A stretch of DNA of 64,000 nucleotides from an uncultured Massilia sp. (GTDB taxonomy: Bacteria; Pseudomonadota; Gammaproteobacteria; Burkholderiales; Burkholderiaceae): positions 1 to 64,000 of the forward strand of contig CAMLMV010000003.1 in assembly GCA_946481275.1 (NCBI GenBank). Direction: 5' to 3'. The position numbers and the translations under genes were made by a program. Of this stretch, positions 43,416 through 60,258 are shown in pieces. The first letter of the stretch is position 1. Each line of letters begins with the position of its first letter. The notes under the pieces were generated by a model, which was not told the DNA's origin, ran no database searches, and saw only the letters and a list, made by a program, of their open reading frames with translations.

Positions 43416-43656
43416 CGCAGCACCCGCCGCAGCAGCCGCCGCTCTTTTCCTTGCGCGCCTCGCCGTAGCCGGCGCCCAGCAGCGCGGCGGTGATGTCCTG
43501 CGTCGACGTGGCTTCCTCGTCGAACTCCACGTGCATCTGCCTGCCGCCCGGCTCGAGGTCGACGCCGCGCACGCCGGGCAGGGTGCAGAGGGCGCTCGTG
43601 AGACGTTCGACGTCGGCGAAGGCGAGGGGGGCCGAGAACTGGAAATCGTGTTGCAT
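43408..43656 (-). CDS. HMA-like ferredoxin-fold protein with cysteine-rich tail
   Basis: An 82-residue protein with the beta-alpha-beta-beta-alpha-beta pattern of heavy-metal-associated domains (LPGVRGVDLEPGGRQMHVEF, then DITAALLGAGYG). It lacks the normal CxxC of the first loop; only Cys24 is there. Instead the C-terminus ends GGCCGGCCGG, a four-cysteine tail that could bind metal. First gene of a two-gene operon preceded by the TTGAACCRGTTTAA-type box and a -10 at the -41.5 spacing, so it is probably induced with nrdJ, ubiUVT and norB. Metal delivery under anaerobiosis is a guess. Confidence 0.7.
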   Translation of the reverse strand: MQHDFQFSAPLAFADVERLTSALCTLPGVRGVDLEPGGRQMHVEFDEEATSTQDITAALLGAGYGEARKEKSGGCCGGCCGG

Positions 43657-43691: not shown

Positions 43692-43733
43692 AGCGTAGGA
43701 CCGGAGGCCGGCCCTGTCCTTGAACCGGTTTCA
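43692..43733 (-). promoter_or_regulatory. Dnr/Fnr-like box and -10 of the HMA-like operon
   Basis: TTGAACCGGTTTCA on the plus strand at 43720-43733 (near-palindrome, so TGAAACCGGTTCAA on the minus strand). On the minus strand, 22 bp further on, lies TACGCT (43697-43692). This puts the box centre at -41.5 from a start near 43685, 29 bp before the ATG. Confidence 0.6.
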
Positions 43734-43744
43734 GGTTTTACGAA

Positions 43745-46186
43745 TCAGGCGCAGCCGCCCAGGTAGTGGCACGACGTGCAGCGCGTGCAGCCGTCGACCT
43801 TGCGCAGCGCGCGGGCGCCGCATTCCGGGCATTTCGCGCCCGTCTCTTCGACCGCGGCCACCTCGGGTGCCGATGCTTCCGCCGGCGTGCCGCGGCCCGC
43901 AAGCAGGCGGTCCAGCGCGTCGGCGGGCACCTGGTTGCCGTACGCGTCGAGGAAGCCGCGCCGGATCAGGATCCGCTGCAGCATGAACGCGATCGCCGCC
44001 ACTTCCGAATCGTGGTACACGGGCACCTGCACGCCATCGGCGCGCGTCAGGTGGCCGCAGCGCACGGGTCCCTTTTCCCACACGACGGCGCGCATGTCGG
44101 CGAGCGCCTTCGCGATGGAGCTGCCTGCACGCGCGGCCAGCGACAGCAGGCGCATCGTGGACGTGATCCACTGGTGGCCGTCGCTGCGCTGGTTGGCGGG
44201 CATGAAGAATTCGAACGGACGCTCGATGGTCAACGCGCGCCCGTTCAGCCTTCCTTCCACGCGCATGAAGCTGATGGTGAGGTACACCGTCTTCTTGCCT
44301 TCCTGCGTCGTGTACTCGACCTTCGAGGTGACCGATTCGAGTTCGCCGGCCGGACGGCTCTCGAAGCGCCGGCGCAGCGGATCGACATCGTCTGCGGACG
44401 GTGGCGGCGCGACGCTCAGCACGCTCCCCGTGACGGCATTCGGCCGGTACGTCGCGAGGCCCTTCAGGCCGGCGCGCCACGCGTCCGTGTATAAATCCTT
44501 GAAATCGTCGAACGGGTAGTCGGCAGGCACGTTGACGGTCTTCGAGATCGCGCCGTCCACGTATGGCTGCACGGCCGCCATCATGCCGAGGTGATCCTGC
44601 GCCGACATCTCCAGCGCGGTCACGAATTGCGGCGGCAGTTCGGCCACGTCGTGCCCGAGGTGGCGGTACAGGCGCCAGGCGTGGTCGGCCACCTCGTAGA
44701 TGCGCGTGCTGGCGTCCGGCATGCGCTTCTTGCGCTGGTACACCCACGAGAACGCGGGCTCGATGCCGTTCGACGCGTTGTCCGCGAACGCGAGCGCGAT
44801 GGTGCCGGTGGGCGCGATCGACATCAGGTGCGAATTGCGGATGCCGTGGCGGGCGATCGCCTCGCGCAGGTCGTCCGGCAGCCGCCGCGCGAATGCGCCG
44901 TCCAGGTAGCGCTCCGCGTCGAACAGCGGAAACGCGCCTTTTTCGCGCGCCAGCTCCACGGATGCGGCGTAGGCGGCGTCGCGCAGCGCGCGCGTGACGT
45001 CGGCGGCGAAGGCGCGGCCCTCGTCGGCGTCGTAGCGCAGGCCCAGCATGACGAGCGCGCTGCCCAGCCCCAGGAAGCCGATGCCGATGCGGCGCTTGTT
45101 GCGGCCTTCCGCCGCCTGCTGCGGCAGGGGCCATTCGGTGGCGTCGAGCGCGAGGTCGAGCATGCGCACGCCGACGGCCGTCACTTCGCTGAACGTGTCG
45201 ACGTCGAAGAACGCGTCCGGTGTGAACGGGTGGCGCACGAACTTCGTGAGGTCGAGCGAGCCGAGGTCGCAGCAGCCGTACGGTGGCAGCGGCTGTTCGC
45301 CGCACGGGTTGGTGGCGGCCAGCGTCTCCGCGTAGTACAGGTTGTTTTCGCCGTTGATGCGGTCCAGGAACAGCACGCCCGGCTCCGCATGGTCGTAGGT
45401 CGAGCGGATCACCTTGTCCCACAGGTCGCGCGCACGCACGGTGCGGTAGACCCAGCGGCCGTCCGGGCGCAGATACGCGCCATTGGCCTGGTCGTCCGGC
45501 CCCGGTTCGGCCGCGTGCGTCAGCGCGACGGCGTCGTCGTCGATCACGGCGCGCATGAACGCGTCCGTGACGCCGACGGACAAATTGAAATTGCTGAACG
45601 CACCGCCGTCCTTGGCCGCGACGAACGCTTCGATGTCGGGATGGTCGATGCGCAGCACGCCCATCTGGGCGCCGCGGCGGGCACCGGCCGATTCGACGGT
45701 GCGGCACGACGCGTCGAACACGGCCATGTACGACACGGGGCCCGACGCGCGCGACTGCGTGCCTTTGACCAGGCTGCCGGCGGGCCGGATGGCGGAAAAA
45801 TCGTAGCCGACGCCGCCGCCACGGCGCATCGTTTCCGCGCTTTCCGCGACGGCGCCGTAGATGCCGGGGATGGCGCCGTCGCGGCCGCTGATCGCGTCGC
45901 CGACGGGCTGCACGAAGCAGTTCATCAGGGTGGCCTTCAGGCCGACGCCGGCGGCCGAGTTGATGCGGCCGGCGGGCACGAAGCCGTGGTCCTGCGCCCA
46001 CAGGAAGCGCTGCTCCATCTCCAGGCGCAGCGGCTCGGGTTCGTGCGCGGCCAGCGCGCGGGCCACGCGCGCGCGCACTTCCGCGACGGTCGTCTCGTCG
46101 CCTTTCGCGTATTTTTCGCGCAGTACGTCAACCGACACGTCCTGCGTCGGCATGGTTGCGGCAAAGAGGGATTCGTTGGCGTTCAT
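43745..46186 (-). CDS. nrdJ: Adenosylcobalamin-dependent (class II) ribonucleotide reductase
   Basis: Makes deoxyribonucleotides with a B12 radical, so it works with or without oxygen. Start is the ATG at 46186, preceded by GAGGA at 4 bp, giving 813 residues. Visible class II parts are the substrate-site Cys in [47 protein letters not shown] and the C-terminal zinc-type [12 protein letters not shown] then [15 protein letters not shown], whose cysteines pass electrons to the active site. No nrdAB or nrdD is nearby. It is preceded by the anaerobic box, and that box overlaps the stop of the DGC gene. Confidence 0.94.
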
Positions 46187-46213
46187 GTCTTCCTCGGTGA
46201 TAGTCAGGCGTCC

Positions 46214-46255
46214 ACTATCCCCGAGGCGCGCCGGCCCCGCCTTAAACTGGTTGAA
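46214..46255 (-). promoter_or_regulatory. Dnr/Fnr-like box and -10 of nrdJ
   Basis: On the minus strand TTCAACCAGTTTAA (46255-46242), then 22 bp, then GATAGT (46219-46214). Predicted start is near 46207 with a 21-base leader. The box contains the TAA stop codon of the upstream DGC gene. Confidence 0.6.
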
Positions 46256-46640
46256 GCAATCGGCGTTCCGCCGCCAGCAGGGCCACGTCGTCCGCCACCT
46301 CGCGCGCGACGGCGGCCGCTTCGGCCGCGTCGAACTGCATGTGGTAGCGCTTGCGCACGCCGTGTTCGGCCAGCTGGACATGCAGGTCCGGCGTCACGCC
46401 GTGGCGCGTGAGGCAGTGGCGCACGCATTCGAGCGGGCAGCCGTCGACGGCGACGACGGGCCGTCCCGACTTCGCCAGCCTGACGAGCGACGGCACGTCG
46501 CCGCCCACGCCGGCGATGCACGACATCTCGGCGACCTCGGCGCGGTCGAGTTCCAGCGCGATGTGGTTGGCCATCTGCGCCGCGCTGGAACAGCCGGAAC
46601 AGGAATAGACGAGGGGGAAAACGGTGCGGTCACGGCCCAT
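46242..46640 (-). CDS. DGC-domain putative zinc-binding protein
   Basis: A 132-residue cytoplasmic protein of the DGC family. The cysteine sets are [18 protein letters not shown] near the N-terminus, SCIAGVGGD, and the name-giving [12 protein letters not shown]. Function is unknown. It is the last gene of the ubiU-ubiV-ubiT operon: its ATG lies 12 bp after the ubiT stop, with AAGGAG 6 bp upstream. Frequent placement with anaerobic ubiquinone genes would fit a metal or Fe-S service to UbiU/UbiV, but this is inference. Confidence 0.78.
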
Positions 46641-46652
46641 GAGGTTCTCCTT

Positions 46653-47054
46653 TCAACGGTCGATGGCGTCCAGCGTATTCTTGATGAGCAGCCCCAGCTC
46701 CGTGTCGCCTTCCATCACGAGACGGCGGCTGAAGAACAGCGTGTCCGGGTCTTCGCGGCGCGTGGCCAGCAGGCCCAGGTCGTACAGGGTCGCGCCGATG
46801 ACGACGTCCGGATCCGTTTTCGACGTCACGGCCGCGAATGACCGTCCGTTCCACGCGACGTCGAAGGCGACGCCCGCGTCCAGCACGGCCAGGCGCAGCC
46901 GCTTGCGCAGGAGCTGCGCGCGCACGTCCGCGTCCAGGTGGGGCTTCAGGCCCGCGTTCAGGCCCGCCGCGAACAGCCACGCGCCGGGCCGGCCGGGCAA
47001 CCGGGACAGGACGTGGCGGACGGGCGCCGGCAGGCGGTAGGGAGACGCGTTCAT
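46653..47054 (-). CDS. ubiT: SCP2-domain accessory protein of anaerobic ubiquinone synthesis
   Basis: UbiT binds ubiquinone precursors through its SCP2 lipid-binding pocket and is required for oxygen-independent ubiquinone synthesis. The 133-residue protein starts at the ATG at 47054, overlapping the ubiV stop (ATGA). The SCP2 core runs from about residue 25 to the end, including FDVAWNGRSFAAV, DPDVVIGATLYDLGLLATRREDPDTLFFSR and GDTELGLLIKNTLDAI. Same order and coupling as known ubiUVT sets. Confidence 0.9.
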   Translation of the reverse strand: MNASPYRLPAPVRHVLSRLPGRPGAWLFAAGLNAGLKPHLDADVRAQLLRKRLRLAVLDAGVAFDVAWNGRSFAAVTSKTDPDVVIGATLYDLGLLATRREDPDTLFFSRRLVMEGDTELGLLIKNTLDAIDR

Positions 47055-47938
47055 GCGGCGACCTCCTCGAGGCCGGGGCGTCCGTGCCAGAAGCCGTTGC
47101 AGGGGGCGGCCGGCATCCACGCGCCCATGCGTTCGCGCGCGGCGGCCCCGGTCAGGGCGCCCGTCAGCACGCCGTGCACGCTGGCGACGATGTCGGCCAT
47201 GTGCGCCGACTGCGGGCTGAGACGCACGACGCCCACACCCAGCGCGCGCATGGCGGGCAGCACGTCCACGAGGTTGCAGACCTTGGCCGACTGGGTCTGG
47301 ATGCCGTTCAGGACGAGGAACGGCTTGCCTTCCTGCGTGTTCAGCACGAGGCCGTCCGGATGTTCGAGACAGCTGAAGCGGCAATCGTCCTTGGGCAGGT
47401 TGCGGTGGCGCGCCGTGAAGCAGCGCGCGGAAAAGGCGAGCGGCATGCGGCCGTATGCGAAGACCTCGGTCTCCACGCCGGCGGGAAGGCCGGACTGCAT
47501 CGCCGCAAGGCTTGTCGAGGGCATCTCCAGCGGCGCGACCCAGCGCACCGCGCCGGCGCGGGCGAGCAGGGCGAGCGTGGCCGGGTTGTAGATGTTGAGG
47601 TGCGGTCCGGCGACGAACGGGCGGCCGTCGACGCAGTGGACGGCGCCCATGTCGTTGGCCTCCACCAGGAACTGTCCGTTGCCGGCCACGCGGCGCACGA
47701 TGGACAGGTCGGACGGCGATTCGATCAGGACTTGGGTCGACAGCACGACCTCCTTGCCGGCGGCGGCCAGGCGGTCCGCCAGCGTGAGCCAATCGGAGGG
47801 GCGCAGCTCGTGCCGGCGCGAGCACACGGTGTCGCCGAGGTAGACGACGTCGACGGGCGTCTCCGCCATGGCATCGTAGAACGCGAACACGGTGTCGCGC
47901 GGCCAGTAGTATTGCAGGGGCCCGAGGGCAATCTTCAT
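47051..47938 (-). CDS. ubiV: Anaerobic ubiquinone hydroxylation protein UbiV (U32 family)
   Basis: Works as a heterodimer with UbiU to hydroxylate the ubiquinone ring without O2. From the ATG at 47938 it has 295 residues and starts MKIALGPLQYYWP. The four [4Fe-4S] ligands correspond to Cys39, Cys173, Cys186 and Cys190, the last three in ARCFTARHRNLPKDDCRFSC. Their spacing equals that of E. coli UbiV. It begins 19 bp after ubiU and overlaps ubiT. Confidence 0.93.
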   Translation of the reverse strand: MKIALGPLQYYWPRDTVFAFYDAMAETPVDVVYLGDTVCSRRHELRPSDWLTLADRLAAAGKEVVLSTQVLIESPSDLSIVRRVAGNGQFLVEANDMGAVHCVDGRPFVAGPHLNIYNPATLALLARAGAVRWVAPLEMPSTSLAAMQSGLPAGVETEVFAYGRMPLAFSARCFTARHRNLPKDDCRFSCLEHPDGLVLNTQEGKPFLVLNGIQTQSAKVCNLVDVLPAMRALGVGVVRLSPQSAHMADIVASVHGVLTGALTGAAARERMGAWMPAAPCNGFWHGRPGLEEVAA

Positions 47939-47957
47939 GATGGTCTTCCGATACGTG

Positions 47958-48968
47958 TCATTTCCAGGGGCGGTGGTAGGCCCCGAGCGTGTGCTGGCTG
48001 CCTTCGGCGACGTTGTCCAGGCTCGCCATCCACTCGCGCCGGACCGAGTAGCGGCCATGCCCGGCGAGGCAGGCGTCGATGGCCGTGCGCCACACCTTCG
48101 TGACCTGGGCGACGTACGCGGGGCTGCGCTGGCGGCCTTCGATCTTGACGGCGCGCGCGCCCGCGGCGGCCAGCTTCGGCAGGATCTCGAGCGTGTTCAG
48201 GCTCGCGGGTTCCTCGATCGCGTAATAGGTCTCGCCGTCCACGTCGAAGCGGCCCTTGCACAGCGTGGGATAGCCGGCCTGCTCCCCGTCGCCGTAGCGG
48301 TCGATGAGGACGTCGTACAGGCGTGCCTCCAGCGCGCGCGGCGTCCGCGTCCAGCGCACCGCCTTCGCAGGCGAGCACACGCCGTGCGTGTTGGGCGACT
48401 CGCCGGTGGCGTACGAGGACAGCTGGCAGCGGCCTTCCGCCATCACGCACAGGCTGCCGAAGCCGAACACCTCGATCTCGACGGGTGAATGCTCGATGAC
48501 TTTTTCCGCCTGGGCCAGCGACAGCACGCGCGGCAGCACGGCGCGCGCGATGCCGAAGTGGCGGTGGTAGAAGGCGATGGCGTCGATGTTCGTCGCCGAA
48601 CCCTGCACGGACAGGTGCAGCCGCAGCTGCGGGTGCACGCGCGCCGCATAGTCCATCAGGCCGGGGTCGGCGAGGATCACGGCGTCGATGCCGTGCGTGG
48701 CGGCGCGGTCGAGGGCGCGCCGCCACGGGCCGTCGCCGCCCGGCTGCGGGTAGGTGTTCAGCGCGAGGAAGACCTTGCGGTTGCGGTCGTGGGCATAGCG
48801 GATGCCTTCGACGATGGCGTCTTCGGAGAAGTTCAGGCCGGCGAAATTGCGCGCATTGGTCGCGTCGCGAAAGCCGAGGTAGACGCAGTCGGCGCCGTGG
48901 TCGATGGCGGCCTTGAGGGCCGGCAGGCTGCCGGCGGGACAAACGAGTTCGAGGGAGGAAGAGGTCAT
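47958..48968 (-). CDS. ubiU: Anaerobic ubiquinone hydroxylation protein UbiU (U32 family)
   Basis: Peptidase-U32-like Fe-S protein, partner of UbiV. The ATG at 48968 gives 336 residues (LELVCPAGSLPALKAAIDHG near the start). Cys174, Cys181, Cys198 and Cys237 have exactly the spacing of the E. coli UbiU cluster ligands (offset by five). First gene of ubiU-ubiV-ubiT-DGC. The anaerobic box at 49024 and a TATGCT at 48996 form its promoter, leaving a 21-base leader. With nitrate as acceptor and NarI using quinol, this operon keeps ubiquinone available without oxygen. Confidence 0.93.
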   Translation of the reverse strand: MTSSSLELVCPAGSLPALKAAIDHGADCVYLGFRDATNARNFAGLNFSEDAIVEGIRYAHDRNRKVFLALNTYPQPGGDGPWRRALDRAATHGIDAVILADPGLMDYAARVHPQLRLHLSVQGSATNIDAIAFYHRHFGIARAVLPRVLSLAQAEKVIEHSPVEIEVFGFGSLCVMAEGRCQLSSYATGESPNTHGVCSPAKAVRWTRTPRALEARLYDVLIDRYGDGEQAGYPTLCKGRFDVDGETYYAIEEPASLNTLEILPKLAAAGARAVKIEGRQRSPAYVAQVTKVWRTAIDACLAGHGRYSVRREWMASLDNVAEGSQHTLGAYHRPWK

Positions 48969-48995
48969 GGCGGGCGGGTGAACGGTAACGCAACG

Positions 48996-49037
48996 AGCAT
49001 AATGACGCGCCGCCTGCAGCGCCTTGAACGGGTTTAA
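48996..49037 (-). promoter_or_regulatory. Dnr/Fnr-like box and -10 of ubiUVT
   Basis: Plus-strand TTGAACGGGTTTAA (49024-49037), read on the minus strand as TTAAACCCGTTCAA, then 22 bp, then TATGCT (49001-48996). Same geometry as nrdJ and the HMA-like operon. The box contains the TAA stop of the upstream gene. Confidence 0.6.
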
Positions 49038-49426
49038 GCAAATCGCACGGCGTGTCCCTCCGGGTCGAACGCGAGGAAGCGTTCGATCGCGCCGCGGTAC
49101 ACGGCGTCGATCATCATCTTGAGGCCGCGGTCGATGCCGGCCGGTTGCTGTTCGCCGGCCAGCGCCGCGACGAAGACCATGTCCCACGGCTGGCCCGTCG
49201 CGCGCGATTCGTCGGCCAGCGCGGTAAAGTCCGCGAGCTCGTCGAGGCCCTTGTCCACGCACATCACGGGCGCCAGCGCGCCGCCGCGGCCTTCCTCGAA
49301 GCGGCGTGCCTGGCCCGGCGTGTGTGCCTGCGGCAGTTCGGCGACGGCGAACACGAACAGCAGGCGCTGCGCCTCGGGCTGGGCGCGCGCGGCGGCGAGG
49401 AAATCGGAAAAATTCGAGAGCTGCAT
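49034..49426 (-). CDS. Small protein often labelled ribonucleotide reductase subunit alpha
   Basis: A 130-residue soluble protein starting at the ATG at 49426 (MQLSNFSDFLAAARAQPEAQ). Relatives in Oxalobacteraceae carry the label ribonucleotide reductase subunit alpha, but I see none of the catalytic cysteines of such an enzyme; only Cys in VMCVDKG is present. True function is unknown. It is the gene before ubiU on the same strand, and its stop codon is part of the ubiU operator. It is divergent from the Dnr-like regulator. Confidence 0.7.
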   Translation of the reverse strand: MQLSNFSDFLAAARAQPEAQRLLFVFAVAELPQAHTPGQARRFEEGRGGALAPVMCVDKGLDELADFTALADESRATGQPWDMVFVAALAGEQQPAGIDRGLKMMIDAVYRGAIERFLAFDPEGHAVRFA

Positions 49427-49553
49427 GGGGAATCCGTGACAAAGAGGAGGATGGTCCGATTGTAGGCACGTTCCCCGCGCGTGAGAGTCGGCACGATGGA
49501 GGACGCCGCCTAGTTCTTCCGGACTATCCCGCGCGGCCATCGTACGCGCGAGA

Positions 49554-50258
49554 ATGGCGGTATCCCGACTATTTTCTCCCGCGACCGTGGCCACAATCGA
49601 TCCTTGCACCTTCCTGCGCCGCCTGCCGCTGTTTTCCGACCTCGGCGAGGACGAGCTGCGCGCCGTCGGCGCCGCCGCCACCGAGCAGCACGTCGACCGT
49701 GGCCGCACCATCGTCGAGCGGGGCGACCCGTGCGAGGGATTTCATTCGATCCTGTACGGCCAGGTCAAGCTGGCGTTCATCTCGCCGCAGGGCCAGGAAA
49801 AGGTCATCGAGATCCTCGGCCCGGGCAAGACGTTCGGCGAGGCCGTCATGTTCATGGACAAGCCGTACTTCGTGACGGCGACGGCGCTGGAGGACTGCCT
49901 GCTGCTGCACGTCCGCAAGGAAGCCATCTTCGCCGAGCTGGAACAGAGCCCCGCGTTCGCGCGGCGCATGCTGGCGGGGATGAGCCGGCGCCTGCACGGC
50001 CTCGTGGCGGACGTGGAGGCGTACACCTTGCACACGGGCGGCCAGCGCGTCGTCGGCTATCTGCTGAAGGATGCGCCCGAATCCGGCGCGACGGTGCGGC
50101 TGTCCGTCAGCAAGCGCCTCGTCGCGTCGCGCCTGAACATCACGCCCGAGTATTTTTCGCGCGTGCTGAACGACCTCACGCGGCGCGAACTCGTGCGCGT
50201 GGCCGGGCGCGACATCGCGATCCTCGACGCGGACGGGTTGCGCGCCTACGAGGGATAG
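49554..50258 (+). CDS. Crp/Fnr-family regulator, Dnr-like
   Basis: A 234-residue transcription factor with a cyclic-nucleotide-type sensor domain (about 18-130), a dimer helix (about 132-160) and a winged HTH whose recognition helix reads TPEYFSRVLNDL. The E-x-x-S-R pattern is the one that contacts TTGA half-sites. It has only Cys18, Cys60 and Cys115 and lacks the N-terminal cysteine cluster of Fnr, so it is more like the heme/NO-sensing Dnr group than an oxygen-sensing Fnr. It sits in the middle of the genes that carry the TTGAACCRGTTTAA box and is the best candidate to bind it. Its 3-prime end overlaps ackA by 13 bp, convergent. Confidence 0.85.
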   Translation: MAVSRLFSPATVATIDPCTFLRRLPLFSDLGEDELRAVGAAATEQHVDRGRTIVERGDPCEGFHSILYGQVKLAFISPQGQEKVIEILGPGKTFGEAVMFMDKPYFVTATALEDCLLLHVRKEAIFAELEQSPAFARRMLAGMSRRLHGLVADVEAYTLHTGGQRVVGYLLKDAPESGATVRLSVSKRLVASRLNITPEYFSRVLNDLTRRELVRVAGRDIAILDADGLRAYEG

Positions 50259-51361
50259 GCGTCCGCGACAGCTTTCGTCTCGCGCGCGATCACGGCTTCC
50301 TCGTCCGCCGGCAGCGTCCACACGGCGACGGCGCTGTCCGGCGTGTGCAGGCGCGGGCCGCCGGCGGCATTGGCGTCCGCATCGAGGCGCACGCCCAGCC
50401 ACGCCGCCTGTTCGCACACGCGGGCGCGGATGTCCGCCGCGTGTTCTCCGATGCCGCCCGTGAACACGAGCACGTCGAGGCCGCCCGCGGCGGCGGCGAG
50501 CGACCCGAGCTCGCGCGCGATCCGGTACACGAACACGTCGACCGCTTCGCGTGCGGCCGGGGCCGGGCTCGCGAGCAGGGTGCGCATGTCGCCGCTGATG
50601 CCGGAGAGGCCCACCAGGCCGCTGTCGCGGTACAGCAGGCGTTCCAGCGCGTCGGGCGTCATCCGTTTTACGCGCAGCAGGTGCAGCACGAGGCCGGGGT
50701 CGAGGGCGCCGCAGCGCGTGGCCATCGGCAGGCCGTCCAGTGCGGAAAAGCCCATCGACGTGGCGACGCTCCTGCCGTCGACCATGGCGCACATGCTGGC
50801 GCCGCTGCCCAGGTGGGCGACGACGACACGGCCACGGGCGCGCGGTTCGAACGCGGGCAAGATGTCGGCGATATGGGTGAACGACAGGCCGTGGAAGCCG
50901 TAGCGCAGCATGCCCTCGTCCGCAAGCGCGCGAGGGAGGCCGTACAGGCGCGCCACTCTCGGGTTCCCGAGGTGGAAGGCGGTGTCGAAGCAGGCGACCT
51001 GCGGCAGGCCCGGATGGAGGCGCGCCATCGCTTCCATGCCGGCCACGTTGTGCGGCTGGTGCAGCGGCGCGAGCGGGGCGAGGGCCTTCAGCTCGTCCAG
51101 CAGCGCGGGCGTGACGAGCGCCGGTCCGGCATGGGCATTCCCGCCGTGCACGACGCGGTGGCCGATGGCCGCCAGCCGGGCCGGCGCGAGGTGGTTCTCG
51201 ACCTGGCCGATGATGGTGCCCAGTTGCGCGGGGCCGTGACCTTCCACCTGGCCGTGCGCGGTCGCGACGACGTCCGCGCCCCGTTCCACGTAGACGGCGT
51301 ACTTGATGCTGGACGAGCCGGCATTGATGCAGGCGTAACCTTTAGTTGCGTTGTCCGTCAT
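50246..51361 (-). CDS. ackA: Acetate kinase
   Basis: Transfers phosphate between acetyl phosphate and ADP. The 371-residue protein begins near CINAGSSSIKYAV, the ATPase-fold phosphate loop, and continues with IGHRVVHGG, CFDTAFH, LRYGFHGLSFTHIADI and a C-terminal VFTGGIGEHAADIR. The ATG at 51361 overlaps the pta stop (ATGA), so pta and ackA are coupled and together make ATP from acetyl-CoA during anaerobic growth. Slightly shorter than E. coli AckA (400). Confidence 0.93.
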   Translation of the reverse strand: MTDNATKGYACINAGSSSIKYAVYVERGADVVATAHGQVEGHGPAQLGTIIGQVENHLAPARLAAIGHRVVHGGNAHAGPALVTPALLDELKALAPLAPLHQPHNVAGMEAMARLHPGLPQVACFDTAFHLGNPRVARLYGLPRALADEGMLRYGFHGLSFTHIADILPAFEPRARGRVVVAHLGSGASMCAMVDGRSVATSMGFSALDGLPMATRCGALDPGLVLHLLRVKRMTPDALERLLYRDSGLVGLSGISGDMRTLLASPAPAAREAVDVFVYRIARELGSLAAAAGGLDVLVFTGGIGEHAADIRARVCEQAAWLGVRLDADANAAGGPRLHTPDSAVAVWTLPADEEAVIARETKAVADAYPS

Positions 51362-52767
51362 GGCGATCCGATCACGGCGGGGGCTGCCGAATGGCGCACG
51401 AGCAGGGAGGCCAGTGCGCAGGAGGCGAGGCGGGCCAGCGGACCATCCGCGCGGCTCGTGAGCATGATGGGCACGCGCGCGCCGAGCACGATGCCGGCCA
51501 CCTGCGCTTCCGCCAGGTATTCGAGCTGCTTGGCCAGCATGTTGCCCGCTTCCAGGTCGGGCACGACGAGGATGTCGGCGCGCCCGGCGACCGGCGACAC
51601 GAACCCCTTCGTCCGTGCCGCTTCTTCCGACACGGCGAGGTCGAACGCCATCGGCCCGTCGAGGATCGCGCCCTCGATCTGGCCGCGGTCCGCCATCTTG
51701 CACAGGGCGGCCGCTTCGATCGTCGACGCGATCTTCGGATACACCGTCTCGAGCGCGGACAGGATCGCCACGCGCGGCGCCGCGATGCCCAGCGCGTGCG
51801 CCAGGTCGATCGCGTTGCGGACGATGTCGCGCTTGTCTTCCAGCGTCGGGTAGATGTTGATGGCGGCGTCCGTGAGGAACAGGGGACGCGGGTACGTGGG
51901 CACGTCCAGCGCGAACACGTGGCTGATGCGGCGGCCCGTGCGCAGGCCGGTGTCGCGGGCGACGACGGCGTGCAGCAATTCGTCCGTGTGCAGCGCGCCT
52001 TTCATGATGGCCCCGACCTCGCCCGTGCGCGCCAGCGCCACGGCGGCGTCGGCGGCCGCGTGGCTGTGCGGCGTCGGCACGATGCGGTACGGCGCGAGGT
52101 CGACGTTCGCCTGCGCGGCCGCCAGGCGGATCTTCGCTTCCGGGCCGACGAGCACCGGCGTGATGAGGCCTGCGCGCGCCGCTTCGACTGCGCCCAGCAG
52201 CGACACCGTGTCGACCGGATGGACGACGGCCGTGGGCAAGCGCGGCGCATCCTGCGCGGCCGCCAGCAGCGCGCGGTAACGGCCGCCGCGCTCGCGCAGG
52301 CGCACTTCCGGCAGCGCGATGCGGGGCCGCGCGACCTTTTCGGCCGGCGCGATGACCTCCGCCGTGCCGGTCGCCACCTGCAGGCCATCCTGGTTCGTCA
52401 CCGTGCAGTCGAGCGTGACGCGGTGTTGTTCGGCGTCGAGCCGGGCGACGGTGAGCAGGACCGTCACCGTATCGCCCAGGCCCACGGGCTTCAGGAAGCG
52501 CAGCGACTGGCCGAGGTAGACCGTGCCGGGACCGGGCAGCTGCGTGCCGAGTACCGTGGAGATCAGCGCGCCGCTCCACATCCCATGCGCGATCACTTCA
52601 TGGAAGGTGCTGCTCCGCGCATATTCCTCGTCCACGTGGGCGGGGTTGACGTCGCCCGACATGACCGCGAACAGTTCGATGTCCGCGCGGGTGAGGGTGC
52701 GCGCGAGGCTCGCGCTGTCGCCGACCTTCAGTTCGTCGAACGTGTGGTTGCTGATCGTATTGTCCAT
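51358..52767 (-). CDS. pta: MaoC-fused phosphate acetyltransferase
   Basis: A 469-residue bifunctional protein. Residues about 1-140 are a MaoC-type hot-dog domain (FAVMSGDVNPAHVDEEYA carries the hydratase Asp-His pair). Residues about 160-460 are a phosphotransacetylase domain (MKGALHTDELLHAVV, FLTDAAINIYPTLEDKRDIV, ADILVVPDLEAGNMLAKQL). Such fusions, annotated enoyl-CoA hydratase/phosphate acetyltransferase, pair with ackA and often fabI in betaproteobacteria. The upstream region holds a perfect Fnr box and a short FabI-like ORF. Confidence 0.92.
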   Translation of the reverse strand: MDNTISNHTFDELKVGDSASLARTLTRADIELFAVMSGDVNPAHVDEEYARSSTFHEVIAHGMWSGALISTVLGTQLPGPGTVYLGQSLRFLKPVGLGDTVTVLLTVARLDAEQHRVTLDCTVTNQDGLQVATGTAEVIAPAEKVARPRIALPEVRLRERGGRYRALLAAAQDAPRLPTAVVHPVDTVSLLGAVEAARAGLITPVLVGPEAKIRLAAAQANVDLAPYRIVPTPHSHAAADAAVALARTGEVGAIMKGALHTDELLHAVVARDTGLRTGRRISHVFALDVPTYPRPLFLTDAAINIYPTLEDKRDIVRNAIDLAHALGIAAPRVAILSALETVYPKIASTIEAAALCKMADRGQIEGAILDGPMAFDLAVSEEAARTKGFVSPVAGRADILVVPDLEAGNMLAKQLEYLAEAQVAGIVLGARVPIMLTSRADGPLARLASCALASLLVRHSAAPAVIGSP

Positions 52768-52770
52768 CGC

Positions 52771-52857
52771 TCACCACGTCACGAGGCGCGCGCCGCCGCT
52801 GGCGCTGCCGGGAATGAGCCCGCGCTTGCCGCGCAGGTCGATAAGAGCGTCAGGCAT
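52771..52857 (-). CDS. 28-codon ORF resembling a FabI N-terminus
   Basis: ATG at 52857 has GGAG 6 bp upstream and encodes a peptide beginning MPDALIDLRGKRGLI, close to the start of enoyl-ACP reductases (GKRGLIVG). It then diverges and stops at 52771, 3 bp before the pta start. It may be a fabI relic after an internal deletion, since fabI is a common partner of this pta-ackA pair, or a leader that couples translation to pta. It lies downstream of the Fnr boxes, so it is the first translated codon series of the operon. Confidence 0.5.
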   Translation of the reverse strand: MPDALIDLRGKRGLIPGSASGGARLVTW

Positions 52858-52903
52858 GTGATTCTCCGAAAAGGGAAGCGTTCCAGTGGCCCACCTTACC
52901 GGT

Positions 52904-52917
52904 TTGACCGATATCAG
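52904..52917 (-). promoter_or_regulatory. Second Fnr-like box of the pta operon
   Basis: TTGACCGATATCAG (plus strand) matches TTGAT-N4-ATCAA at 8 of 10 positions and lies 18 bp, centre to centre, from the perfect box at 52922. It overlaps the space where RNA polymerase would sit, so it may tune or repress. Confidence 0.45.
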
Positions 52918-52921
52918 ATCG

Positions 52922-52935
52922 TTGATCTAAATCAA
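52922..52935 (-). promoter_or_regulatory. Perfect Fnr box upstream of pta-ackA
   Basis: TTGATCTAAATCAA is an exact TTGAT-N4-ATCAA. On the minus strand TAAGGT follows at 23 bp, which puts the box near -42 of a promoter for the mini-ORF/pta/ackA operon. The centre is 71 bp before the first ATG (52857). Confidence 0.7.
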
Positions 52936-52982
52936 AACTTTGAAAAATTATAAAGATGAGCAAACTGGTCGCGAAACTTAAT

Positions 52983-53004
52983 CTGTCATCAACATTTCAT
53001 CATC
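52983..53004 (+). promoter_or_regulatory. Pho box upstream of phospholipase C
   Basis: CTGTCATCAAC followed directly by ATTTCATCATC: two 11-bp direct repeats, the first starting with the exact CTGTCAT half-site of PhoB. A TACGCT lies 6 bp downstream (53011). Phosphate control of secreted phospholipase C is established in other proteobacteria. Confidence 0.6.
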
Positions 53005-53063
53005 ATTGCCTACGCTAAAGACTCGCTGAGCATCAAATCCATCATTTCCGATAATCAACCTGG

Positions 53064-53120
53064 ATGAGTCAAATGCAACTTTCTGATCTCGCGTTTCCCG
53101 CCACGATGGTGCACGCATGA
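53064..53120 (+). other. 18-codon upstream ORF coupled to phospholipase C
   Basis: ATG at 53064 opens a frame (MSQMQLSDLAFPATMVHA) whose TGA overlaps the phospholipase ATG as ATGA at 53117-53120. It may deliver ribosomes to the start, since no good Shine-Dalgarno precedes the phospholipase gene itself. Confidence 0.4.
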
Positions 53121-55282: not shown

Positions 55283-55295
55283 CCAGGAGATTCCC

Positions 55296-56048
55296 ATGCA
55301 CATTCGATTCCTCATCGCGGCCGCGCTGCTCGCCGCGGCGTGCAACAGCCAGGCCGCCGTCGTCTACGGCAGCAACCTCGTCGTCAACGGCGACGCGGAA
55401 GCCGGTACCGCCGGCTGGACCGGCTACGCGGGCTACAACCCGTTCCAGTCCGTGGACTACGGCAGCAGCTGGGTACTGCCTACGCAACCGGGACCGCTTG
55501 ACCGCGGCAACAGGATGTTCGCCGGATTCGGCCAGTATGCGGTCGGTTACCAGACGCTCGACTTCGGCACGGCGACGACCCGGGACACGTCCTACGCGCT
55601 GACCGGCTGGCTCGGCGGCTGGCAAGACCAGGGCGACAACGCCCTGTTCTACGTGCAGTTCCTCGACGAATTCGACAACGAGATCGGGAGCTCGATGCTC
55701 GGCCCGGTGACGCCGCAGGACCGCAACGACGAGACCGGCCTGATGTACCGCGAGACCGACGGCTTCGTCCCGACCGGCACCCGCAAGCTGTCGTTCTGGC
55801 TGTCGATGGAGCGCCTCGTTTCGGACGACAACGATGGCTATGCGGACAACCTGTCCTTCGTCCTGCAGGCGCCGCCCGCCGGCGACGTGCCGGAGCCCGC
55901 CATGGCGGCGCTGTTCGCGCTGGGCCTCGGCACGCTGGGCTGGGCGCGGCGGTCAAAGCGCAAGGTTGGGGCGGTGGCGCAGCACGGGCGCCGCGAGGTC
56001 GATGCCGAGCCGCAGGCAGGCAACGGCCAGCAACAGGCCGGCGCCTGA
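55296..56048 (+). CDS. PEP-CTERM sorted exoprotein
   Basis: A 250-residue secreted protein with signal peptide (LLAAACNSQAAV) and a beta-rich body (NLVVNGDAEAGTAGWTGYAG). The C-terminus has the sorting signal VPEPAMAALFALGLGTLGWARRSKRK: PEP motif, hydrophobic helix and basic cluster, cut by an exosortase. A 24-residue hydrophilic extension follows the basic cluster, longer than normal. It lies 13 bp after plcN and is probably co-transcribed. Its last 96 bp overlap, antisense, the 3-prime end of the membrane protein gene at 55953. Confidence 0.82.
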   Translation: MHIRFLIAAALLAAACNSQAAVVYGSNLVVNGDAEAGTAGWTGYAGYNPFQSVDYGSSWVLPTQPGPLDRGNRMFAGFGQYAVGYQTLDFGTATTRDTSYALTGWLGGWQDQGDNALFYVQFLDEFDNEIGSSMLGPVTPQDRNDETGLMYRETDGFVPTGTRKLSFWLSMERLVSDDNDGYADNLSFVLQAPPAGDVPEPAMAALFALGLGTLGWARRSKRKVGAVAQHGRREVDAEPQAGNGQQQAGA

Positions 56049-57206
56049 CGCCAGCGGCGGCACCACGCACGCGGCGAGCAGCACGGCGACGGCCGCGGCG
56101 TGCCAGCGGCATTGCGTGCGCAGGCAGTCCGGCGGGATGAGTTCCGCGAATTTCGGCGCCGCCACGTCCGGCGGCAGGCGGGCGCGCAGGTGGTGCCACA
56201 CGAGGAACGGCACGATCCGGTAGAGCATGCCGTTCACGGCGGACATCGCGCAGCCCGCGAGGAAGCAGACGCCGACGAGTGGGGCCGATGCTTCGCCCGG
56301 CCACGCGAACAGCCAGGCGGCGCCGGCCAGCGCCGCGAGCGACAGCAGCCAGTAGCGCGTGCCGGCCGCGGTGCGCGTGCGTTCCCGCCGCAGGAGCAGG
56401 GCCGCGGCCAGGCCGGCGTAGGCGGTGACGACGGCCGCGCCGGCCAGCGCGGGCACGGCACGCCATGGTGCGTCCAGCCAGCGGCCCGCGATCCAGCCGG
56501 CCAATGCGATCAAGACGAGCGGCACGAGCACGCGCGCGGCGAGCGGCGGAAACGGGTCGGTCGCCTGGAACATCGGGATCACCTGGAACGACACGGCCAT
56601 CACGAGCGCCACGACCCAGCCGGCCAGGCCCAGCGCCGCGTGGGTATCGACGAGCGGCAGCACGGGGACGGCCGGGCCGCCCGCGAGCCAGCCCGCGAGG
56701 AGCAGGCCGGCCACGACGCACGCCAGCAGCGCCGCGACGGCCGCGCACATGCCGCCGGCGATGTGGACGACGGCGGCGGCGCGTGTTCGTTGCCATAGCG
56801 TGGGCAGCAGGCAGGCCAGCAACGCACCGAACGCCGCCAGCAGTACCGCCCCCGCCAGCGCGAACAGGCGCGCCTGCCCGGACAGGAACGCGGCCGCCAG
56901 CAGCGCGGCGCCCGCGCCCAGCAGCGGGCAGCTCCAGGCGGCGAGGCGGGACGTGCCGCGCAGCGCCAGCCCGGCCACGGCCGGCAGCATCTGCAGCAGC
57001 GAGCCCGCCATGGTCATCGTCAGGAAGCCCAGCGTGACGAGGTGCACGGCCGCCAGCGCCGGCGCGGTCCAGCGCGACGCGAAGACGGCCGCGCCATGCC
57101 ACGCGACGACGCCGCCCGCCGCCACGCCGAACCACGGCGCCGCGAGCAGGAACGCGAGCGGCACGGCGGGCGGCGGGAGGCGGGTGTAGTCGAGGGCGCG
57201 CCGCAT
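55953..57206 (-). CDS. Polytopic membrane protein of the norB operon
   Basis: A 417-residue protein with about twelve hydrophobic helices. Conserved-looking histidines occur in AVHLVTLGFLTMTMAGSLLQ, LPLVDTHAALGLAGW and PFLVWHHLRARL, reminiscent of heme- or copper-binding membrane proteins and of NnrS. I do not recognise an exact family. Its ATG at 57206 overlaps the DUF2249 gene stop (ATGA), making it the fourth gene of norB-nsrR-DUF2249-this. A role in NO tolerance or in assembly of NorB is suggested by context only. Confidence 0.7.
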   Translation of the reverse strand: MRRALDYTRLPPPAVPLAFLLAAPWFGVAAGGVVAWHGAAVFASRWTAPALAAVHLVTLGFLTMTMAGSLLQMLPAVAGLALRGTSRLAAWSCPLLGAGAALLAAAFLSGQARLFALAGAVLLAAFGALLACLLPTLWQRTRAAAVVHIAGGMCAAVAALLACVVAGLLLAGWLAGGPAVPVLPLVDTHAALGLAGWVVALVMAVSFQVIPMFQATDPFPPLAARVLVPLVLIALAGWIAGRWLDAPWRAVPALAGAAVVTAYAGLAAALLLRRERTRTAAGTRYWLLSLAALAGAAWLFAWPGEASAPLVGVCFLAGCAMSAVNGMLYRIVPFLVWHHLRARLPPDVAAPKFAELIPPDCLRTQCRWHAAAVAVLLAACVVPPLASGAGLLLAVACLRLGIDLAAPVLRHRPNLAL

Positions 57207-57421
57207 CAGGCGTCCCGCGCGATGGTCACGAGGCAGCCGTCGTCCCGCCACTCGGATTGCCAGCGGTAACCGCTGCGCGCGAGGATGCCGTACAGCGGGT
57301 GCGGTTCGCGTGCCAGCAGCACGCGCAGCCGCGCGCCGTCCGGGAGGCTGTCGAGCGCGGCCAGCACGCGCTCCATGGGTTCGGGGGCGGGCAGGGCCCG
57401 CAGGTCGAGAAGATCGTTCAT
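57206..57421 (-). CDS. DUF2249 small protein
   Basis: A 71-residue protein starting at the ATG at 57421, overlapping the nsrR stop by ATGA. The DUF2249 fold is TusA-like: LDLRALPAPEPMERVLAALD gives the N-terminal beta-alpha unit and GYRWQSEWRDDGCLVTIAR the C-terminal strands. The TusA catalytic cysteine is absent; the only cysteine is in DGCLV. DUF2249 proteins recur in denitrification and NO-response loci; the function is not known. Confidence 0.78.
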   Translation of the reverse strand: MNDLLDLRALPAPEPMERVLAALDSLPDGARLRVLLAREPHPLYGILARSGYRWQSEWRDDGCLVTIARDA

Positions 57422-57822
57422 GATGGTGCGATGAGGCTGGACAGCGCGATGCCGTCCAGCGACTCGAGAAAATAGGCCGTCGCGCGGCACAGCGCCCCTT
57501 TCAGCACGCACGCCGGCGCGAGCGGACACGCGCGGGCGCGGCCGTCCAGGCAGGCGACGAGGTGGAAATCGGGCTCCGTGTGGCGCACGACGTCGCCGAC
57601 GGTGATGTCCGCGGGCGCGCGGGCGAGGCGGATGCCGCCGCAGCGGCCCCGCACGGTCTCGATGAAGCCCGCGTGCCCCAGTTCGTTGACGATCTTCGTC
57701 AGGTGATGATGGGAGATCCCGTGCAGGGTCGCCACTTCGCCCGTCGTGGCGAGGCGGCCCCCGTTGGTCCCCAGGTACATCAGCACGCGCAGGGCGTAGT
57801 CGGTATGTTCGGTGAGACGCAT
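57418..57822 (-). CDS. nsrR: NO-sensing Rrf2 repressor
   Basis: Rrf2-family regulator of 134 residues whose Fe-S cluster reacts with NO and releases DNA. The HTH covers about 1-60 (LTEHTDYALRVLMYLG; GISHHHLTKIVNELGHAG). The cluster ligands are Cys91, Cys99 and Cys105 in ACLDGRARACPLAPACVLK; the first gap is 8 residues instead of the 5 of E. coli NsrR. It starts 22 bp after norB, so it is co-transcribed with its probable target. A matching palindrome covers the predicted norB -10. Confidence 0.9.
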   Translation of the reverse strand: MRLTEHTDYALRVLMYLGTNGGRLATTGEVATLHGISHHHLTKIVNELGHAGFIETVRGRCGGIRLARAPADITVGDVVRHTEPDFHLVACLDGRARACPLAPACVLKGALCRATAYFLESLDGIALSSLIAPS

Positions 57823-57844
57823 GTCCGCTCCGGCGCCCGTCGCA

Positions 57845-60151
57845 TCAGGCTTTGGTGGTGACGCGGGCGGCCCTGGCGGCGGGCCGGCCGGCGATCTCGA
57901 TGGGTACCTCGACCGGTCGTGCCGGACGGCGCACCGCCCGCAGCACGAACAGCGCGAGGAACACGGTGCCCACCGCGAACACGACGTCGCCCGGCACGCG
58001 CAGCCACACCATGTTCTCCATGAACGGGGAGTGGATCACTTCCGGCGAGCGCGCGAACCACATGCCCTTCGTGATGCTGGCCCAGGCCTGGTAGATGCCG
58101 GCCGGGACGAGCGCCATGAACACCATCATCGCGAGGCCGAGGTTCAGCAGCCAGAACATCGGCTTGAGGAGGGCGTCCGACCAGGCGAGGCGGTCCGTCA
58201 GGCCGCGCAGGCAGAACAGCATCAGGCCCACGCCGAGCATGCCGTACACGCCGAACAGGGCGGCATGGCCGTGCGCGGCCGTCATGTTCAGGCCCTGCAT
58301 GTAGTACAGCGCGATCGGGGTGTTGATCGAGAAGCCCAGCAGGCCCGCGCCCACCGTGTTCCAGAAGCCGACGGCGATGAAGCACAGGATCGCCCAGCGG
58401 TAGTTCGCGACCCACGGCGCGGCCTTCGTGCGCTGGTAGTTGCGCCAGGCTTCGATGCCGATCATCGACAGCGGCACGACCTCCAGTGCCGAGAACATGG
58501 CGCCGATCGCGATCACGGCCGTCGGGGTGCCCGTGAAGTAAAGGTGGTGCAGCGTGCCGAGGATGCCGCCGAACAGGAACACGATGGTCTCCAGCACGAT
58601 GGCGGCGTTGGCGCTGGCCGCGCGGATCAGGCCCAGGCGGGTGAACAGCAGGGCGATGACGGCCGTGGCGAACACTTCGAAGAAGCCTTCGACCCACAGG
58701 TGCACGAGCCACCACCTCCAGTACTCGACCATGGCGTAGTGCGTATGCTGGCCCCAGGTCAGCGACGTGGCGTAGAAGCCGCCGATGCAGACGGCCGCCA
58801 GGAACACCATGGCGATCAGGCCGCGGCTCTCGGAGGGTTTGCGCAGCGCGGGCCACAGGCCGCGGCCGAGCAGGAAGGCCCAGAACAGCAGGCCGGCGAA
58901 CAGCAGGTATTGCCACACGCGGCCCATGCTGGTGAATTCCAGGCCCTGGTTGCCGAGCCAGAAGCTGAAGTCGACGCCGCGGTGCTGCAGGGTGCCGAGC
59001 CAGCCGCACGCGGTGGAACCGGCGACGATGAACAGCAGCGCGTAGAACAGCACGTTGACGCCCAGCGCCTGGAACTTCGGCTCATGGCCGGAGATGGCGG
59101 GCGCGATGTACAGGCCCGTCGCGAGCCACGCGGTGGCGATCCACAGCACGGCGAATTGGGTGTGGATCGTGCGGCTGATCGTGAACGGCAGGATGTCGCC
59201 CAGCGGGATGCCGAAGAAGCTGTGGCCCTCGACGGAATAGTGCGCGGTGACGACGCCCATGCCCACCTGGGCGAGGATCAGCGCGACCACGACGGCGAAG
59301 TACTTGCGGGTGGCCTTCATCGACGGCGTCGCCTTCAGCTTGAACAGCGGGTCGTCCTTGGGCGGCTTCGGGTCCGCTTCTTCCGGCTGCGCGGAGTGGA
59401 ACAGCACCATGCCGGCGATGGCGCCGATCATGACGATGATGCTGGCGACCGACCAGATGCCGGCGCCGGCCGTCGGGGTGTTGCCGACGAGCGGTTCGTG
59501 GGGCCAGTTGCTCGTGTACGACAGGCCGGTCTCGCCCGGACGGTCGGTCGCGGCGGACCAGGACGACCAGAAGAAGAAGGCGGTCAGCGCCGTGCGGTCA
59601 TCGAGGGCGGGCAGGGAGCCGGCGCTCATCGCGTACTGTTCGCGCAGCTTGTCGAGTTTCGGATCGGTGCCGAACAGGCCTGCGTAATGGCTTGCGACGG
59701 CCGCGATGGCGGCGGTGCGCTCGGCGGACAGGCTCAAGGTGTCGGCGGCCGCATCGTACGTGTTGCGGCGCAGGGCGTCCTGCGCGAGCGCGTCGATACC
59801 GCCCCGTGCGACCGCGTCCAGCTGCGCGTACGGCTTCCCGTGGCTGCGCTCGGCCAGTCGGTCCTGCAGGGCGACGGCTTCGCGGTGCAGCCAGTCGGCG
59901 GACCAGTCGGGGGCGACGTAGCTGCCGTGGCCCCACACGGTGCCCAACTGCTGGCCGCCGGCGGCGAGCCAGGCCTGCTGGCCCCGTTTGATCTGTTCGC
60001 CGGTGTAGATGACGCGGCCCTGGTGGTCGAGGACTTGTCCCGAGATCGGCGGCGCCTTCAGGTAGATCTCCCGGCCCACGAACAGCAGCGTGCCGAAGGA
60101 GAGTACACAGATGATCGCCAGCCAGGTCCATAGTCTGCGTGTAGCGTGCAT
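57845..60151 (-). CDS. norB: Quinol-dependent nitric oxide reductase (qNOR)
   Basis: Single-subunit enzyme that reduces two NO to N2O with electrons from quinol. From the ATG at 60151 (AAGGA upstream) it has 768 residues. An N-terminal membrane helix and periplasmic domain (about 30-215, TGEQIKRGQQAWLAAGGQQLGTVWGHG) replace the cytochrome c subunit of cNOR. The catalytic part has at least twelve helices with heme/FeB histidines in WWLVHLWVEGFFEVF and LGTLHHLYFTGTP. Length is typical of qNOR. No norC is near. It detoxifies NO formed during nitrate respiration. Confidence 0.96.
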   Translation of the reverse strand: MHATRRLWTWLAIICVLSFGTLLFVGREIYLKAPPISGQVLDHQGRVIYTGEQIKRGQQAWLAAGGQQLGTVWGHGSYVAPDWSADWLHREAVALQDRLAERSHGKPYAQLDAVARGGIDALAQDALRRNTYDAAADTLSLSAERTAAIAAVASHYAGLFGTDPKLDKLREQYAMSAGSLPALDDRTALTAFFFWSSWSAATDRPGETGLSYTSNWPHEPLVGNTPTAGAGIWSVASIIVMIGAIAGMVLFHSAQPEEADPKPPKDDPLFKLKATPSMKATRKYFAVVVALILAQVGMGVVTAHYSVEGHSFFGIPLGDILPFTISRTIHTQFAVLWIATAWLATGLYIAPAISGHEPKFQALGVNVLFYALLFIVAGSTACGWLGTLQHRGVDFSFWLGNQGLEFTSMGRVWQYLLFAGLLFWAFLLGRGLWPALRKPSESRGLIAMVFLAAVCIGGFYATSLTWGQHTHYAMVEYWRWWLVHLWVEGFFEVFATAVIALLFTRLGLIRAASANAAIVLETIVFLFGGILGTLHHLYFTGTPTAVIAIGAMFSALEVVPLSMIGIEAWRNYQRTKAAPWVANYRWAILCFIAVGFWNTVGAGLLGFSINTPIALYYMQGLNMTAAHGHAALFGVYGMLGVGLMLFCLRGLTDRLAWSDALLKPMFWLLNLGLAMMVFMALVPAGIYQAWASITKGMWFARSPEVIHSPFMENMVWLRVPGDVVFAVGTVFLALFVLRAVRRPARPVEVPIEIAGRPAARAARVTTKA

Positions 60152-60213
60152 GGCTTTTTCCTTCACTGTGGTTGATCGATGCACCGCATTGTGCGACGAA
60201 ACCCGACAATAGT

Positions 60214-60228
60214 TGCATTGCAAATGCA
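60214..60228 (-). promoter_or_regulatory. NsrR-like operator over the norB -10
   Basis: TGCATTGCAAATGCA has perfect 5-bp arms (TGCAT/ATGCA) spaced by 5 and resembles the ATGCAT-type half-sites of NsrR. It covers the predicted -10 of norB (TGCAAT, 60222-60217), which fits repression of the norB-nsrR operon by its own product. Confidence 0.55.
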
Positions 60229-60244
60229 GCTTTATTTGAAATGC

Positions 60245-60258
60245 TTGACCCAGTTTAG
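60245..60258 (-). promoter_or_regulatory. Dnr/Fnr-like box between norB and nnrS
   Basis: TTGACCCAGTTTAG matches TTGAACCRGTTTAA at 12 of 14 positions. On the minus strand TGCAAT follows after 22 bp, the same spacing as at nrdJ, ubiU and the HMA-like gene, so it most likely activates norB. No such -10 is seen towards nnrS. Confidence 0.55.

Follow-up and report, generated by a model that had tools for sequence, protein, structure and literature searches.

A 64,000-nucleotide stretch of DNA from an uncultured Massilia sp. (assembly GCA_946481275.1, contig CAMLMV010000003.1, positions 1 to 64,000; hereafter the window) contains three anaerobic operons, nrdJ, ubiUVT and a gene for a small HMA-like protein, that share one operator and promoter plan. 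A dimer of the Crp/Fnr-family protein encoded at 49554 would bind the 14-bp palindrome TTRAACC-GGTTYAA, centred at −41.5 before each operon, and would activate the three promoters from this class II position. The predicted effect is that ubiquinone and deoxynucleotides are made without oxygen during nitrogen oxide reduction. The Massilia box appears to have departed from the Fnr/Dnr consensus TTGAT, with A at base 5 and C at base 6 of the half-site, in a lineage in which residue 200 of the Dnr, next to the conserved Glu199, is Tyr and not His; the TTGAT boxes would remain with a separate Fnr. A hybrid box is accompanied by an NsrR-like operator at a fourth operon, norB, whose control is probably different. 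We hold this explanation as a whole with good confidence. On comparative grounds, the three-operon Dnr-type regulon with its variant box is judged to be real, with norB uncertain and the binding predicted. Sequences, conservation, co-occurrence and co-variation are observed directly; from them we infer binding, activation, signalling by nitric oxide, and whatever causal part Tyr200 may play. The features concerned are as follows.

49554..50258, plus strand: Dnr-type Crp/Fnr regulator; PF00027 (cNMP_binding) at 74.8 bits and PF13545 (HTH_Crp_2) at 49 bits, both over the cut-off
46242..46255, minus strand: operator of nrdJ, TTCAACCAGTTTAA; overlaps the end of the DGC gene
46214..46219, minus strand: −10 of nrdJ, GATAGT
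43745..46186, minus strand: nrdJ, adenosylcobalamin-dependent ribonucleotide reductase; NCBIfam TIGR02504 at 573 bits, cut-off 400
49024..49037, minus strand: operator of ubiUVT, TTAAACCCGTTCAA; contains the stop codon of gene 49034-49426
48996..49001, minus strand: −10 of ubiU, TATGCT
47958..48968, minus strand: ubiU; NCBIfam NF047963 at 552 bits, cut-off 440
47051..47938, minus strand: ubiV; NCBIfam NF047965 at 409 bits, cut-off 275
46653..47054, minus strand: ubiT; NCBIfam NF047962 at 127 bits, cut-off 47
43720..43733, minus strand: operator of the HMA-like gene, TGAAACCGGTTCAA in the direction of transcription
43692..43697, minus strand: −10 of the HMA-like gene, TACGCT, 22 bp from the box
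43408..43656, minus strand: HMA-like small protein with a Cys-rich tail; Pfam HMA at 21.4 bits, below the cut-off of 24.8
46242..46640, minus strand: DGC-domain protein; Pfam PF08859 at 119 bits, cut-off 27

An earlier, sequence-only reading had placed four copies of the box at 43720, 46242, 49024 and 60245, each followed after 22 bp by a −10-like hexamer. All four boxes are present at those coordinates (plus-strand letters TTGAACCGGTTTCA, TTAAACTGGTTGAA, TTGAACGGGTTTAA and TTGACCCAGTTTAG, respectively), and the hexamers TACGCT, GATAGT, TATGCT and TGCAAT each start 22 bp after their box. The proposed box centres of −41.5 and leaders of 29, 21, 21 and 59 bases hold if transcription starts 7 bases past the −10. 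With up to three mismatches allowed, the window contains nine strand-wise matches to the box against 1.5 expected, and nine were reached in none of 100 shuffles.

A matrix was trained on 16 distinct ubiU and nrdJ boxes from 13 other Massilia genomes and scanned over the roughly 64,000 positions of the window. The boxes of nrdJ, ubiU and the HMA-like gene take ranks 1, 2 and 3. They are followed by an Fnr-type box at 52922, two sites at 21052 and 8083, and then the norB box. The reversed window served as control; the background loci, which score up to 21.0, are no control because they were themselves fetched as box matches.

The spacing is conserved in relatives. Each box was chosen by its own score alone, blind to the −10, and this count is relied on, as a spacing profile built on boxes picked with a −10 is circular. 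A [TG]A...T hexamer lies at exactly 22 bp from the best box in 42 of 51 promoters; by our own arithmetic its chance at a given position is about 1.5% at this base composition. Among nrdJ orthologs in genomes that have the Dnr (Dnr+), it stands at 22 bp in 18 of 21 and at 23 bp in one. The ubiU orthologs have TA...T at 22 bp in 15 of 21 and at 23 bp in five, and the remaining one has CATGCT at 23 bp. All nine HMA-like promoters with a box have TA...T at 22 bp; three further loci are boxless and are excluded from the 51. No box precedes nrdJ at any of the nine nrdJ loci examined in genomes lacking the Dnr (Dnr−). Promoters of relatives are related by descent and are not independent; their leaders nonetheless vary from about 20 to 130 bases. 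Across the window and five relatives (loci L016 to L020), the HMA-like box and its flanks are invariant while the spacer has diverged, and the ubiU box keeps its form with its ends swapped. In L020, nrdJ lacks the spacer and the −10. With 22 to 23 bp from box to −10, the class II position is supported for the nrdJ, ubiU and HMA-like promoters, their start sites being predicted. Thus, of the one class II regulon first proposed, the nrdJ, ubiUVT and HMA-like parts are supported, by matrix rank and by spacing in relatives, and the norB part is not.

The boxes overlap gene ends: the final codons of the DGC gene make up the nrdJ box, and the stop codon of 49034-49426 falls within the ubiU box. They could in principle be by-products of coding, which we consider very improbable. 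The HMA-like box is intergenic, and box and spacing remain in genome G020 without the coding neighbour. In that genome nrdJ is preceded by TTAAACCGGTTCAA and TATAGT, and ubiUVT and the DGC gene are gone.

The box was compared with the distribution of the Dnr over 62 Massilia genomes and a wider family sample of 392 genomes. A Dnr ortholog is found in 25 of the 62 (E < 1e-80; next best match 4e-16), and the other 37 are Dnr−. The ubiU ortholog occurs in 21, every one of them Dnr+. The 62 genomes contain 43 exact TTRAACNNGTTYAA sites, 31 in Dnr+ and 12 in Dnr− genomes. Twenty-one of the 31 lie within 200 bp before ubiU or nrdJ, compared with none of the 12. The reversed pattern gives 10 and 13 sites, respectively, so the Dnr+ excess equals the target promoters. 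Counted by genome and over all centres, an exact site is present in 18 of 25 Dnr+ and 11 of 37 Dnr− genomes (p 0.002, with kinship ignored). Sites with a CYRG centre occur in 13 of 25 and 2 of 37, a post hoc split that is not the main count. Because ubiU is confined to Dnr+ genomes, the site counts link box, targets and Dnr, and do not by themselves name the binder. In the family sample, exact TTRAACYRGTTYAA is found in 66 of 392 genomes; the sole match inspected outside Massilia (G106) lies between the 3′ ends of hemN and nrdJ.

Twenty-two of the 43 exact sites are off target, and ten of these loci were read. In three (L067, L082 and L088) the box lies within one conserved gene, which we take from its sequence to encode a class II fumarase, and a fourth (L070) has the same neighbouring gene. 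L084 and L322 have the box inside a reading frame, as does L318, where the frame is doubtful; in L321 it is at the very start of one. The boxes of L319 and L320 are outside reading frames. At position 2045 of L319 (G059), an exact TTGAACCGGTTCAA lies about 120 bp 5′ of an open frame of 613 codons, which could be another target.

The 49554 protein is identical to a M. kyonggiensis protein over all 234 residues. Its best match in the Protein Data Bank is P. aeruginosa DNR (3dkw, E 4e-35), and none of the NCBIfam models scores over its cut-off. Cysteines occur at positions 18, 60 and 115 only, so the protein has no Fnr-type Cys cluster for oxygen sensing; the Fnr candidate of the genome is a separate protein (L038). 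The recognition helix reads P198-E-Y-F-S-R203. The protein had been proposed as the activator, and comparison supports this as likely, because the box tracks this Dnr both in its presence and in which base stands at position 5.

Of the 25 Massilia orthologs, 24 have the helix PEYFSR and one, in G047, has PEHFSR. In the family sample, 170 of 392 genomes have a Dnr relative at E up to 1e-30, and the helix was read in 59 proteins of 58 genomes, hand-picked across genera: 36 are PEYFSR, 22 PEHFSR and one PETLSR. Boxes for the base-5 count were found by a scoring blind to positions 5 and 6, with a −10 required at 22 or 23 bp. Of 91 promoters 79 passed (65 PEYFSR, 14 PEHFSR); the 12 dropped are three nrdJ promoters of PEYFSR and nine ubiU promoters of PEHFSR genomes. 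A at position 5 (A5) occurs in 90 of 96 half-sites from Massilia PEYFSR genomes, 8 of 34 from PEYFSR genomes of other genera, and 0 of 28 from PEHFSR genomes. With identical boxes counted once per gene, the figures are 49 of 54, 5 of 18 and 0 of 26. When ubiU is counted separately by Dnr type, at least one A5 half is present in 21 of 21 promoters against 0 of 13. Several PEHFSR ubiU promoters of other genera have a TTGAT-type box with a TAtAGT-like −10 at 22 or 23 bp, and hence the promoter plan predates the base change. The half-site had first been given as TTGAA in place of the standard TTGAT. It is distinct as a pattern, and its form is better described as TTRAAC, in which positions 5 (A) and 6 (C) are conserved and position 3 varies between G and A. 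Since the box is thus a variant of the DNR box TTGATN4ATCAA, the 49554 protein is named Dnr-type and not Dnr proper.

The boxes might instead be degenerate Fnr sites bound by the ordinary oxygen-sensing Fnr of the cell, with the Dnr incidental, or be shared by both proteins as with Anr and Dnr in P. aeruginosa. Genome-wide box scans bearing on this used G001 in place of the window's own genome; it is the nearest genome compared, sharing 25% of its sampled 31-mers with the window. G001 encodes a Cys-cluster Fnr (helix TIESISR) and a second Fnr-like protein (helix TLETVSR). In the excerpts of published reports on which this and later comparisons draw, Fnr drives ubiUV in E. coli (PMC10470549), and Anr and Dnr boxes are called indistinguishable (PMC5398030, PMC4860495). 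Against this, G001 contains 13 exact TTGATN4ATCAA sites (one in the reversed control) that form a separate set. Exact TTRAAC sites precede ubiU or nrdJ in Dnr+ genomes only, though ubiU itself is limited to these. Moreover, A5 shifts with the helix type of the Dnr even within Massilia, where the PEHFSR genome G047 has TTGACCTGGGTCAA. Binding by Fnr is therefore regarded as improbable. The window itself contains a canonical box for contrast, outside the regulon:

52922..52935, minus strand: canonical Fnr-type box, TTGATTTAGATCAA, before another operon

A TAAGGT hexamer starts 23 bp after this box. The first gene of the operon, 51358-52767, looks by eye like a phosphate acetyltransferase gene.

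Several observations weigh against Dnr-type control through a variant box. In G001 the loose pattern (up to two mismatches) gives 104 sites and its reverse 124, with no enrichment; signal stands out from chance only when the strict pattern is counted across many genomes. Three genomes (G060, G021 and G011) with a PEYFSR Dnr contain neither ubiU nor norB, and no exact box. Two of 21 genomes have lost the −10 of nrdJ. In L017 (Massilia sp. Root133) the ubiU box is interrupted by an insertion of 16 bp, which also makes it a natural test case. The PEYFSR proteins form one clade (support 95/86) whose sister is the PEHFSR protein of G172, with TTAAGCGAAATTAA as its nrdJ box; the residue thus changed only once, and the counts cannot be treated as independent. 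Finally, PEYFSR is insufficient for A5, as its carriers in other genera show. Tyr200 as the sole determinant of A5 is ruled out by these genomes. A5 is strong in only a part of the PEYFSR clade, where Tyr200 may have contributed to it.

Base 5 might instead have drifted in one lineage, with a Dnr indifferent to it, Tyr200 a passenger and the boxes ordinary Dnr boxes. The single clade fits such drift, as does the mixture at position 5 in PEYFSR genomes of other genera (C 17, A 8, T 5, G 4 of 34 half-sites), and in Dinoroseobacter shibae TTAAC-N4-GTCAA functions as a Dnr/FnrL site (PMC5398030). Drift would not be expected to keep A5 in Massilia about as constant as A4 (95 of 96) and more constant than position 3, across three operons and 27 distinct boxes. 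We consider it unlikely, though it deserves weight. A further proposal, given somewhat less than an even chance, is that Dnr and Fnr are orthogonal in Massilia. A Dnr with Tyr200 would read TTRAAC boxes that Fnr ignores and would read the TTGAT boxes of Fnr poorly; the His-to-Tyr change beside Glu would have been permissive, followed by a concerted change of base 5 at ubiU, nrdJ and the HMA-like gene.

The norB region differs from the three promoters described above.

57845..60151, minus strand: norB, nitric oxide reductase with a fused cytochrome-c-like domain (Pfam)
60245..60258, minus strand: hybrid box before norB, CTAAACTGGGTCAA, a doubtful member
60214..60228, minus strand: NsrR-like palindrome TGCAT-N5-ATGCA over the claimed norB −10, its place read from the sequence to about one base

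Membership of norB as a fourth copy of the shared plan is not supported: its box scores 12.2 bits (rank 7), below the box at 52922 and within the range of the reversed window, whose best is 14.2. A [TG]A...T hexamer at 22 bp from the best box is found at none of 21 loci, in five of which the box is too near the start codon. The claimed −10, TGCAAT, lies within the TGCAT-N5-ATGCA palindrome, which is conserved between the window and 8 of the 19 genomes aligned; the alignment left out two norB genomes, G014 and G029. The NsrR consensus used for comparison was taken from PMC1274295. Membership with a −10 at 22 bp is ruled out by this lack of conservation; class II would still be compatible with a start at another place. 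Given the hybrid box and the overlap of the claimed −10 with an NsrR-like palindrome, norB more probably has a repressor-controlled promoter. The alternative, full membership with the same Dnr activating from the hybrid box and NsrR added as repressor, is given a little less than an even chance. The box is kept in close kin of the window at a steady distance from the palindrome, norB occurs in 21 of the 62 genomes (20 Dnr+ and one Dnr−), and DNR control of norB is predicted in beta-proteobacteria (PMC1274295). On the other side, beyond the weak score and the missing −10, norB regions of other Massilia show TTGAT- or TTGAC-like halves. A nearby Rrf2 protein (57418-57822) resembles RirA and NsrR and falls below the cut-off of both. 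The norB loci of G014 and G015 (L192 and L201) are matches with internal stop codons, one and two TGA, respectively.

Several known systems resemble this one in part. The DNR regulons of beta-proteobacteria and Pseudomonas (PMC1274295) also have a Dnr-type activator with nitrogen oxide genes nearby, and an FNR-like palindrome with a C/G flank (CTTGATnnnnATCAAG there, ...TTYAAGG in many Massilia boxes). They have T at position 5, whereas Massilia has A, and its core targets are ubiUVT, nrdJ and the HMA-like gene. P. aeruginosa nrdJ likewise encodes a class II ribonucleotide reductase induced in anoxia through Dnr from an Anr/Dnr box; the difference lies in the box, TTGA[T/C]NNNN[A/G]TCAA, which is reported to be blind to Anr versus Dnr (PMC4860495). 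Predicted DNR targets in alpha-proteobacteria include a putative lipid carrier and a gene of the U32 family, which to us resemble ubiT and ubiU/V, respectively; the DNR, FNR and FixK sites are held to be very similar if not identical, unlike here (PMC2908626). E. coli ubiUV is activated anaerobically from a site near −40, as here, but by Fnr and with the half-site TTGAT (PMC10470549). Herbaspirillum seropedicae also has two Fnr-family proteins per cell with slightly different motifs. Both are Fnr orthologs that may form heterodimers, and the reported difference is not at position 5: Fnr3 prefers C/G and C/T at positions 6 and 7 (PMC5934665). The D. shibae TTAAC-N4-GTCAA site, 39.5 and 41.5 from two starts, is also a non-TTGAT half-site with A at position 3; it differs in having C at position 5 and in being shared by FnrL and DnrD (PMC5398030). 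Given that P. aeruginosa nrdJ is known to be under Dnr control and the link to U32 and lipid-carrier genes is predicted, the targets are unremarkable; the novelty lies in the box. No report of this box in Massilia was found in the open literature, with most subscription journals outside the scope, and its exact forms matched only unrelated work.

The genes define a compact anaerobic regulon that joins B12-dependent deoxynucleotide synthesis to oxygen-independent ubiquinone synthesis. Published accounts find little or no difference between the boxes of Fnr, Anr and Dnr (PMC5398030, PMC4860495, PMC2908626), which raises the question of how the family avoids cross-talk in one cell. One base per half-site divides Dnr-linked from Fnr boxes genus-wide, and with a candidate residue and intermediate genera at hand, the question becomes testable with few proteins and boxes. 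A change of this size might keep two sister regulators from crossing wires. If orthogonality holds, it would be a natural case of such regulators separated by one base per half-site at several promoters.

Some minor features accompany these loci. The NnrS, norB and DGC proteins of the window have clear Pfam domains. Upstream of dnr in L111 to L115 (G036, G060, G006, G021 and G011) lies a TTGATCCACATCA(A/T) box, suggesting a cascade from Fnr to Dnr; the dnr of the window has no box of this type upstream. In the window (46190-46219) and in close kin, the nrdJ −10 is one arm of an inverted repeat, GATAGT...ACTATC, at which a second regulator such as NrdR could possibly act. In several Massilia genomes with the Dnr, ubiU or nrdJ has as its neighbour the gene of a 130-residue protein (49034-49426 in the window), for which no Pfam or NCBIfam match was found. 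The tail of the HMA-like protein is C-terminal and rich in Cys and Gly, and in most of the loci read the gene follows the B12-dependent nrdJ; that the protein is a metal carrier is a guess. The arrangement in G020 (L325), where a ubiU-like box and −10 immediately precede nrdJ, looks like that of a shortened operon.

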